Positions 1,544-15,356 of a stretch of DNA of 22,762 nt are shown here, piece after piece. The number at the start of each line of letters is the position of its first letter. Position 1 is the first letter of the stretch. Under the pieces are notes generated by a model. That model saw only the letters and a program-made list of their open reading frames with translations, ran no database searches and was not told where the DNA came from. This DNA is from a virus: positions 1 to 22,762 of the IMG/VR virus record IMGVR_UViG_3300037847_007603. One strand, 5' to 3'. The position numbers and the translations under genes were made by a program.

Positions 1544-2536
1544 ATGATCTTAAAAATTGAATTAGAAATGATCAAAAAGATAGGCTTAGATGCGACTGTC
1601 TTTTTTTCTTATTTAAAAAAATATGGAGATAATATTAAAGCCGAAGGATTTTTTTCTGTAAAGCTAAAAACCGTGGAAAAAGATTTGGATATAAAAAGAG
1701 TCAGCTTAAAAAATGCTATAAGGCTTTTAGAAAATAAAAAATATATAAAAACCATGACCCTTGCGAAGGGCATTATTACAAATGTAAGATTCAAAATTAT
1801 ACATATACAAAACGAACAAACTCACGGTGTATTTAAATACGTCAACACCGCATCAAAGCCTTTAAAAACCCGTGTATTAGAATACGTCAACACCGCAGCA
1901 TCCACGGTGCATTTAAATACGTCAACACCGCACAAACACGATGCGCCCTCTATATATTCTTATATTACTATAAATAGTAATATACTTAAGAGAAAAAATA
2001 ATCTTGGTGAAAATTCAATTTCATCGGATGTTAGAAAAAATATTTTATCATTGTTAACTTTAAAAGAGGGGGACTCTAAAAAACAAACACCCTCGCCATT
2101 GGTTAAAAAACCTATCAAAAAAGCTTTTAAAAGAGAAACGAATAGCGATGCTAAGGGTGGTATTTCCAAACGTGAAAAAACGCTAATTCTGGCGGAAGAA
2201 ATTTTAAACTATTTAAACCAAAAGACAGGTAAGAAATTTAGAATTAATGCGGTTAGTAACTCCAAACATATTTTGGCAAGAATAAGTGAGGGTTATACTT
2301 TAGAAGAATTTAAACTTGTAATTGATAAAAAAACTCTCCAATGGAGTGATTTAATTTTTTCTAACGGCCAACCGGCATCTAATTATCTAAGGCCTGCAAC
2401 TCTTTTTAACTCTAAAAATTTTGAAAACTACTTGAACGAAAATAATTTGAGTAAACCCAATAACAAAAAATTTAAAAGTGACTTAGATAGAGACCTATAT
2501 AATTTTTTTAAAAAAAATAATTGCCAAGGAAGTTAA
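1544..2536 (+). CDS. Phage replication initiator with winged-helix N-terminus and Phg_2220-type C-terminal domain
   Basis: This 330-residue protein is likely the origin-binding replication protein. Residues 1 to about 85 look like a winged helix (ATVFFSYLKKYG, then TVEKDLDIKRVSLKNAIRLLENKKYI). Residues about 212-300 match the conserved phage replisome C-terminal domain (Phg_2220_C/TIGR02220): ILNYLNQKTGKKFR, then ARISEGYTLEEFK, then YLRPATLFNS and FENYLNE. The linker between them is encoded by three DNA iterons and an AT-rich palindrome, an arrangement like lambda O, where the origin lies inside the initiator gene. AAGGAG lies 7 nt before the ATG. The helicase-like gene that follows fits an initiator/helicase pair. 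Proteins of this type can also act as helicase loaders. Confidence 0.82.
   Translation: MILKIELEMIKKIGLDATVFFSYLKKYGDNIKAEGFFSVKLKTVEKDLDIKRVSLKNAIRLLENKKYIKTMTLAKGIITNVRFKIIHIQNEQTHGVFKYVNTASKPLKTRVLEYVNTAASTVHLNTSTPHKHDAPSIYSYITINSNILKRKNNLGENSISSDVRKNILSLLTLKEGDSKKQTPSPLVKKPIKKAFKRETNSDAKGGISKREKTLILAEEILNYLNQKTGKKFRINAVSNSKHILARISEGYTLEEFKLVIDKKTLQWSDLIFSNGQPASNYLRPATLFNSKNFENYLNENNLSKPNNKKFKSDLDRDLYNFFKKNNCQGS
1823..1932. repeat. Three 30-bp iterons (putative replication origin)
   Basis: Three direct copies begin at 1823, 1868 and 1903. All share ATACGTCAACACCGCA at their right end. Copies 1 and 3 differ at a single base, and copy 2 matches copy 1 at 25 of 30 positions. Each of copies 1 and 3 has internal dyads: CGGTG pairs with CACCG at the two ends, and copy 1 contains the perfect palindrome GTATTTAAATAC (1829-1840). 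Offsets of 45 and 35 bp put the third copy in a different reading frame, so conservation is at the DNA level. This is expected of initiator-binding iterons. Confidence 0.75.
1950..2000. other. AT-rich tract with perfect palindrome beside the iterons (putative unwinding element)
   Basis: Just right of the iterons lies an almost pure A/T tract. It contains a perfect 10-bp inverted repeat (1961-1970 and 1975-1984, TATATTACTA with its complement) around a 4-nt loop TAAA. An easily melted tract next to iterons is the classic layout of a phage origin. It is still inside the coding sequence of the initiator gene. Use as the DNA unwinding element is inferred. Confidence 0.5.
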
Positions 2537-2581: not shown

Positions 2582-3427
2582 ATGATAGAGATTAACAAGG
2601 AATCTTTAGAGGATGTTTTTCACTTATTAAAAGAGAGAGAGAAGACTCACTTTTATTCAGATTTTAAATTTTTAAATGCTCATAGAGGTCACAGACCTGG
2701 CAATCTACATTTATATCTAGGTGTAGCACACGGTGGTAAAAGCACATTAATAAGATCGTTAATTTTAGACGCACTAAAAAGAGTAGATAAAGACAAAAAG
2801 GTATTAGTTTGGCTATCAGAGGAAACCGAGAGCGATTTTTTAATTGAATTTTCAATGGCTGTAAAAAGCTTTGATCAAAAGGACGCAGAAACTATCTTTA
2901 AAAAGCTTTTGATACATTCGGAGTTAAGTTTTTCTAAGCATTTTAAAAGTGAGCCTATGTCGACTAAGTTTAATTATTTTAAAGAGTCTGTTAATCGAGA
3001 AGACGTAGATATTATTTTTTTTGATAACATAACTACTTCTAGTTTTTATATGGATCAACAAATAGAAACACAGAGCTTTTTTATCAAAGAAGTAAAAGAG
3101 ATAATTGGAGAGTGTAGGAAGCCTTTAATCTTTGTAGCTCATACTGGAGCAGACGTTACAGAAAATAGTCATCGTTTAATTAGTATGAATGATATTCGAG
3201 GTTGTAAAAGTATTATTAATGTCGTTCAATATTGTTATATTCTTCAAAGATTCCACATTAACGAGTTTTATTTTCCTACTTTAAGAATTACTAAGCATAG
3301 AGGACAAACAGTTGATGAAAAAATGTATTATATAACATTCGACAAAGAGAAAAATTTATACATTGAGGACCGACACTTAGACTTTGAAGAAATGAAGGAT
3401 AATTTTAAACGAAGGAATGTCTTATAA
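2582..3427 (+). CDS. RecA/DnaB-like replicative helicase ATPase
   Basis: This 281-residue P-loop ATPase of the RecA/SF4 (RepA/DnaB-like) type probably unwinds DNA at the phage fork. Visible motifs are Walker A GVAHGGKST (47-55), a WLSEE segment with a candidate catalytic glutamate (78-82), Walker B VDIIFFDN (142-149), VAHTG (185-189) and a C-terminal ITKHRG (236-241) in the position of the DnaB/RecA arginine-finger strand. It lacks the N-terminal domain of full-length DnaB, so it resembles compact phage and plasmid hexameric helicases. AAGGA precedes the ATG. It follows the initiator gene by 45 nt. A RadA- or Cas-type ATPase role is possible but less likely given the neighbour. Confidence 0.8.
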   Translation: MIEINKESLEDVFHLLKEREKTHFYSDFKFLNAHRGHRPGNLHLYLGVAHGGKSTLIRSLILDALKRVDKDKKVLVWLSEETESDFLIEFSMAVKSFDQKDAETIFKKLLIHSELSFSKHFKSEPMSTKFNYFKESVNREDVDIIFFDNITTSSFYMDQQIETQSFFIKEVKEIIGECRKPLIFVAHTGADVTENSHRLISMNDIRGCKSIINVVQYCYILQRFHINEFYFPTLRITKHRGQTVDEKMYYITFDKEKNLYIEDRHLDFEEMKDNFKRRNVL

Positions 3428-14426: not shown

Positions 14427-15356
14427 ATGAGTCAGTATAAAGCGACGGTAGATAAACTTTTAACTCAAGCCTCTGCCGCTTATATTCCAGAGGGCTTCGC
14501 TTGCGAGTCTATTTTACCAGAAATTAGAGTTAAACAATGGTCGGGCAAGCTTGCCAAGTATGGGACTAATCACCTTAGAGTAGAGACAAATTTTTCAGGT
14601 GGGCGTGGTGCTTATAGAAGAGTTAATCCTATTGTTAGAGAACAAAGCACTTATCAAATTGAAGGACATGGGTTGGAGAGCCTGGTTTCCGCATCTGACA
14701 TAGCCAATGCGGATCAACCTTATGACGCCATGAGAGATGAAGTAATTGGTTTAACCTCTCAACTAATTTTGGAAAAGGAAAAAACATTAGGAGACGTATT
14801 GGGAGACACTTCGGTTTTAACTTCCAATACCACATTGAGCGGGACAAGCCAGTGGTCAGACTTTTCCAACTCTGATCCTATTGGTGATGCGGCTACAGCA
14901 AGACAGACAGTAATGGACGGATGCGGAATGGCTCCTAATGTCGCTATTATGTCTTGGTTTGTCTGGAATAAATTGAGATTTTCTTCTAAACTTTTAGACG
15001 CACTAGGGTATAAGTATAATCAGACTGGTGGCCTTAACAATGACGAACTTGCGGTTGCTTTAGGTGTTAAGAAAATTATTCGTTCGGATGCAATGTATGA
15101 ATCGGCAGCCGAAGGTCAAACAAGTAACCTAGAGCCATGTTTTGGCAAAAATACAATTTTTGCAGTTGTCCCTGAGAGAGCCAACCCATACCAAGTTTCT
15201 TTGGGCTATAGAATTCAACAATCAGCTCCAAGAAGAGTTTACAAATACGCACAAAGCAACCCTCCTGGGTCTTTTTGCGTTTTGGTTGAGGACAATTACG
15301 ATCTTTTCCTAAGTAATGTCAAAGCGGCATATTTAGTAAAAGATTGTGTAGCATAA
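14427..15356 (+). CDS. Major capsid protein
   Basis: This 309-residue protein is expected to adopt the HK97 fold and form the capsid shell. Recognised blocks are AAYIPEGFACESILPEIRV near the N-terminus, ASDIANADQPYDA, TLSGTSQWSDFSNSDPI (136-152, a signature of this capsid group), PNVAIMSWFVWNKLR and a C-terminal VEDNYDLFLSNVKAAYLV. The start has AAGGAG 8 nt upstream. It follows the cement gene closely and is followed by a terminator, so the cement and capsid genes form a strongly expressed block. No prohead delta domain precedes the capsid domain, consistent with a separate scaffold. Confidence 0.9.
   Translation: MSQYKATVDKLLTQASAAYIPEGFACESILPEIRVKQWSGKLAKYGTNHLRVETNFSGGRGAYRRVNPIVREQSTYQIEGHGLESLVSASDIANADQPYDAMRDEVIGLTSQLILEKEKTLGDVLGDTSVLTSNTTLSGTSQWSDFSNSDPIGDAATARQTVMDGCGMAPNVAIMSWFVWNKLRFSSKLLDALGYKYNQTGGLNNDELAVALGVKKIIRSDAMYESAAEGQTSNLEPCFGKNTIFAVVPERANPYQVSLGYRIQQSAPRRVYKYAQSNPPGSFCVLVEDNYDLFLSNVKAAYLVKDCVA

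Follow-up and report, generated by a model that had tools for sequence, protein, structure and literature searches.

Why does a phage replication initiator gene carry three nearly identical repeats and an AT-rich palindrome inside its own coding sequence, and is it the DNA or the encoded peptide that is being kept? We addressed this question in a 22,762-nt stretch of viral DNA (IMG/VR record IMGVR_UViG_3300037847_007603), the whole of which is referred to here as the window. Our analysis of its sequence and of related phages suggests that positions 1823-1984 are very probably the phage's theta-type replication origin, made up of iterons and a DNA-unwinding element and placed where its own initiator gene encodes the linker. 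The features concerned are as follows.

1544-2536, plus strand: replication initiator gene, 330 aa (PF09524 Phg_2220_C, E 7e-24; phrog_428, E 2e-32)
1544-1801, plus strand: predicted winged-helix DNA-binding domain, codons 1-86 (AlphaFold2 H-H-E-H-H-E-E, block-mean pLDDT 58-87)
1808-2158, plus strand: linker, predicted disordered (pLDDT <50), codons 89-205, containing the putative origin
1823-1852, plus strand: iteron 1, core ACGTCAACACCGCA at 1839-1852
1868-1897, plus strand: iteron 2, core at 1884-1897
1903-1932, plus strand: iteron 3, in a different reading frame, core at 1919-1932
1933-1960, plus strand: spacer block CAAACACGATGCGCCCTCTATATATTCT, which recurs, altered, at the equivalent place in relatives
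1961-1984, no strand assigned: AA-centred AT palindrome with 11-bp arms (24 bp), a probable DNA-unwinding element, inside the least stable 40 bp
2201-2437, plus strand: codons of the Phg_2220_C domain, residues 220-298 (Pfam match)
2582-3427, plus strand: DnaB/RecA-like helicase ATPase gene adjoining the initiator (phrog_239, phrog_19)

The identification of the protein as a replication initiator is supported by its family. PF09524 matches residues 220-298 with 84.1 bits against a Pfam cut-off of 27 and is matched by all 10 aligned relatives, and the phrog_428 'replication initiation protein' match spans residues 12-318. An AlphaFold2 model from 10 sequences, which replaced a poor five-sequence model, is of moderate confidence overall (mean pLDDT 62), with a confident C-terminal domain. 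The N-terminal part is predicted to form a winged-helix domain; the Foldseek matches to it are weak (best E 0.04) and are nearly all to winged-helix DNA-binding proteins, including 4pt7 ('Structure of initiator') and 5kbj ('Structure of Rep-DNA complex'). A Pfam search of the window initiator gave no HTH match, and HTH_36 was found in the initiators of two relatives. Both the iterons and the palindrome lie within the codons of the predicted disordered linker, where protein constraint should be low. A RecT-family gene is located upstream of the initiator on the opposite strand, the initiator-helicase gene order is kept in relatives with a Phg_2220_C initiator, and no separate helicase loader gene was recognised. 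The DnaB-like ATPase is only 281 aa long, and its matches in phage primase/helicase families are to their C-terminal part.

The three direct repeats, with a spacing of 45 and 35 nt, are 100, 83 and 97% identical to copy 1 (copies 1, 2 and 3, respectively) and form the only direct-repeat family in 1500-2500. A 28-nt repeat pattern with up to three mismatches has two matches in the window against none expected from shuffles, and a search for ATACGTCAACACCGCA that allowed up to two mismatches found three occurrences in the whole window, all of them at the repeat site. The best in-gene repeat score is 27, compared with a maximum of 15 in 60 synonymous-codon shuffles of the initiator gene. These coordinates and shuffle controls bear out an earlier note on this DNA, which had placed three 30-bp repeats and an AT palindrome inside the initiator gene. 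The same note had described copies 1 and 2 as encoding a similar peptide in one frame, with copy 3 shifted, and indeed the three copies encode YVNTA, YVNTA and TSTPH, the last being one frame off. Its description of internal CGGTG/CACCG dyads in the element fared less well, as conservation of this dyad is incomplete: copy 2 has CCGTG, and relatives have CGATG or CGAGG. The iteron core, the invariant right-hand 14 nt ACGTCAACACCGCA, is asymmetric and describes the element better. An Rfam search of the window returned no RNA family, and neither this specific iteron nor a symmetry-constrained palindrome was matched in the literature searched, which was limited in extent.

Comparison with two relatives bears on what is being selected. 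L015 (IMGVR_UViG_3300030102_008231) has 81% DNA identity to the window over a shared 3.1 kb and encodes a 330-aa initiator, 72% identical to that of the window, with three repeat copies at unchanged spacing. At codons for unchanged residues, synonymous changes between the two affect 1 of 47 in 1820-1995 and 61 of 188 in the remaining gene (Fisher p 4e-6), and the lowest synonymous-change windows along the initiator gene coincide with the origin region. Amino-acid identity to L015 is 80% in the origin codons and 70% elsewhere in the gene, which is a modest gap. Since the synonymous sites of the origin are nearly frozen and amino-acid identity is little raised, the DNA is being held while the residues drift. 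L195 (IMGVR_UViG_3300017909_005241), with an initiator identity of about 36-41% depending on the method, has three identical 14-nt cores at the corresponding place in its gene, and the core is identical in all nine copies from the window, L015 and L195. Its reading phases are 1,1,0 in the window, 1,1,0 in L015 and 1,2,1 in L195, so that the same DNA is read in all three frames, giving YVNTA or NVNTA, TSTPH and QRQHR across the three phages. The L015 and L195 records contained no further copies of ACGTCAACACCG.

It could be argued that what is conserved in the repeats is a protein motif, the recurring peptide YVNTA, as this is encoded by copies 1 and 2 in both the window and L015, and an NTA or TSTAH peptide is retained in most relatives. 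We find this scarcely credible, however, because copy 3 of the window (TSTPH) and copy 2 of L195 (QRQHR) read an identical DNA core in other frames, the synonymous sites are frozen and the linker is predicted to be disordered. On the strength of reading frames and synonymous sites, we reject peptide-level selection. The proposal of the earlier note that selection at the iterons acts on DNA, not peptide, therefore holds at the level of sequence comparison, both in the synonymous conservation relative to L015 and in the single core read in three phases across phages; when the element was searched for in related phages, the middle copy of L195 proved to have retained the DNA and lost the peptide, the reverse of a peptide kept without its repeat.

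With the neighbouring helicase as bait, six more contigs were found (L239, L240, L241, L242, L244 and L246). A Phg_2220_C initiator lies immediately upstream of the helicase in five of the six, and L246 has the helicase with a different upstream gene that shows no detectable match to the window initiator. Diverged iterons are present in L239 (two copies, cores ACGACAACACCGCA and ACATCTACAGCGCA) and L240 (three copies, core ACATCYACASCGCA), in the same place as those of the window, and here too the first and last copies are in different frames. L241 (3261-3359) and L242 (43-141) instead carry three in-frame 33-bp repeats with CATTSCAGTGY, unrelated to the window iterons, and L244 carries yet another in-gene repeat. 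In-gene repeats of other sequence are present in most sampled relatives: in 9 of the 12 family genes sampled, including SPP1 gene 38 and r1t orf11, the best in-gene direct repeat outscores each of 60 synonymous shuffles, while the score of PLg-TB25 ties one shuffle and those of Ray17 and PK2.1 are not outstanding. Another Phg_2220_C gene (L004:600-920) has GCTAGC/CTAGCA motifs densely placed upstream of its conserved domain, possibly in-gene iterons of its own. Scans of viral contigs with 15-mer patterns gave mostly single, valueless matches, with three copies only in L015. Scanning genome contigs for paired cores gave 22 matches, which are without initiator or helicase similarity and look like repeats in other coding genes, so that neither host nor prophage was found.

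The palindrome at 1961-1984 reads TATATTACTAT-AA-ATAGTAATATA. Its probability of arising by chance is 0.0005 in mononucleotide shuffles and, in synonymous shuffles, 0.012 with any loop and 0.0025 when AA-centred. By nearest-neighbour energies, no 40 bp of the whole window is less stable than the stretch that starts at 1950. The last iteron core is separated from the palindrome by 28 bp in the window and L015 and by 27 bp in L195, L239 and L240. In L241 and L242 an AA-centred palindrome follows the different repeats, at 45 bp as measured with the marker used for these two, and the iterons appear to have been swapped in these two contigs and the palindrome retained. The arms of the AA-centred palindrome are 9-11 bp across contigs, and its five sequence versions, spread over seven contigs, change symmetrically, the dyad being retained through symmetric substitutions although the region also encodes protein. 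Counted over these five, 51 of the 55 cells hold Watson-Crick pairs, compared with 14-20 cells when the pairing is slid and 0 of 5000 shuffles reaching 51, and more than one pair type occurs at 9 of the 11 pair positions. These figures overstate independence, since the palindromes were selected for being the best dyads close to a set position and the seven contigs share ancestry. Pairs were counted on ungapped centres because MAFFT misaligned the short palindromes. Taken individually, the versions have synonymous-shuffle P values of 0.012-0.079 (any loop). Downstream of the repeats, no long palindrome was found in SPP1, Ray17, Javan350, Javan271, L087, L028 or L244, and r1t and PLg-TB25 have only one with 7-bp arms.

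Within the arrangement, it is this covarying palindrome that is least familiar. As it persists beside wholly different iterons in L241 and L242, the binding and palindrome modules would be interchangeable, and it is possible, though less likely than not, that the palindrome is an unwinding unit constrained for symmetry and not for sequence in such an exchangeable pair, working either by forming a hairpin or cruciform or by offering a second factor a site to bind as a dimer. Elsewhere in the window, a long AT palindrome (TATATATATACATTATATAATGCATATATATA, located between 6451 and 6495) occupies part of the interval that separates divergent genes (6438 and 6712), and a hairpin (GAGGGAGAGTTGTAACTCTCCCTC, located between 15361 and 15405) found right after an ORF ending at 15356 is probably a terminator.

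The locus brings together several features of an in-gene iteron origin, namely DNA-constrained direct repeats within the gene, an adjacent AT-rich and easily unwound region, and a helicase gene beside the initiator. From this anatomy and from precedents we infer that initiator binding, melting and initiation take place at 1823-1984. The winged-helix domain of the initiator would bind the three iterons, the initiator-iteron complex, once assembled, would strain and melt the adjoining AT palindrome, and the C-terminal domain of the initiator and the helicase encoded next door would then be recruited. GC skew, a check around 1823-2000 proposed in the earlier note, fits such an origin, the cumulative minimum of the window being at 1968; this is weak support, as genes diverge near 1500 and their orientation confounds the skew.

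Initiator binding alone does not prove an origin, as such sites could serve autoregulation. Some 280 nt past the start codon of the initiator, the repeats are transcribed with the gene, and there they could function mainly in autoregulation or copy control, as an operator, a roadblock or a handcuffing site, with replication starting elsewhere. The origin anatomy makes this improbable, since the least stable 40 bp are adjacent and a conserved, covarying palindrome follows at fixed spacing; moreover, no second iteron cluster was found in the window or in the records of two relatives, which are possibly fragments. Partition systems, too, include iterons bound by winged-helix proteins, and TubR binds its own such iterons. 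The N-terminal model weakly matches TubR in Foldseek, and the repeats could accordingly be a centromere-like partition site or another structural site. We consider this very improbable, however, as the gene encodes an initiator with a Phg_2220_C fusion beside a helicase gene, and the ORFs searched included no TubZ- or ParA-like gene.

If 1823-1984 is indeed the replication origin, it would represent an unusually clear natural case of an origin within coding sequence that is indifferent to the encoded peptide, based on a 14-nt core read in three frames across related phages in the codons of a linker predicted to be disordered. Initiator-linker repeats that beat synonymous shuffles could also be a route to origins in uncultivated phages, while the covarying palindrome points to a possible role in melting or helicase loading.

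The arrangement itself is already known from SPP1 oriL, TP901-1/Tuc2009 and the lambda ori in O, and the window adds a new example. In the Bacillus phage SPP1, gp38 binds the oriL direct repeats inside gene 38, beside an AT-rich unwinding element (PMC6316719). This replisome organizer (gp38/G38P) belongs to the same family as the window initiator (tblastn E 2e-17 over the C-terminal domain), and in both loci the initiator gene itself holds the direct repeats, with an AT-rich unwinding element next to them. SPP1 differs in its repeat sequences, in having oriR as a second origin and gp39 as a separate loader, and in lacking a long palindrome downstream of its repeats. TP901-1 ORF13 and Tuc2009 Rep2009 are replisome organizers, each reported to bind a repeat-rich region of the gene that encodes it, and r1t ORF11 was reported as a Rep2009 homologue (PMC8965321). 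ORF11 of r1t, a lactococcal P335 phage, is homologous to the window initiator, and in-gene repeats are present; however, the repeat sequences of these three P335 phages differ from those of the window, and the short palindrome of r1t has a P of 0.07. The lambda ori within gene O likewise contains iterons and an AT-rich region (PMC6022878). The earlier note had named lambda O as the same concept, and this likeness stands, as iterons and an adjacent AT-rich unwinding region lie inside the initiator gene in both. As the closest precedent, however, lambda gives way to the Phg_2220_C initiators of SPP1 (gp38/oriL) and r1t, which are nearer. The lambda ori also differs in having four hyphenated inverted repeats of 18 bp, and the window initiator has a weak O-like PHROG match (E 6e-4).
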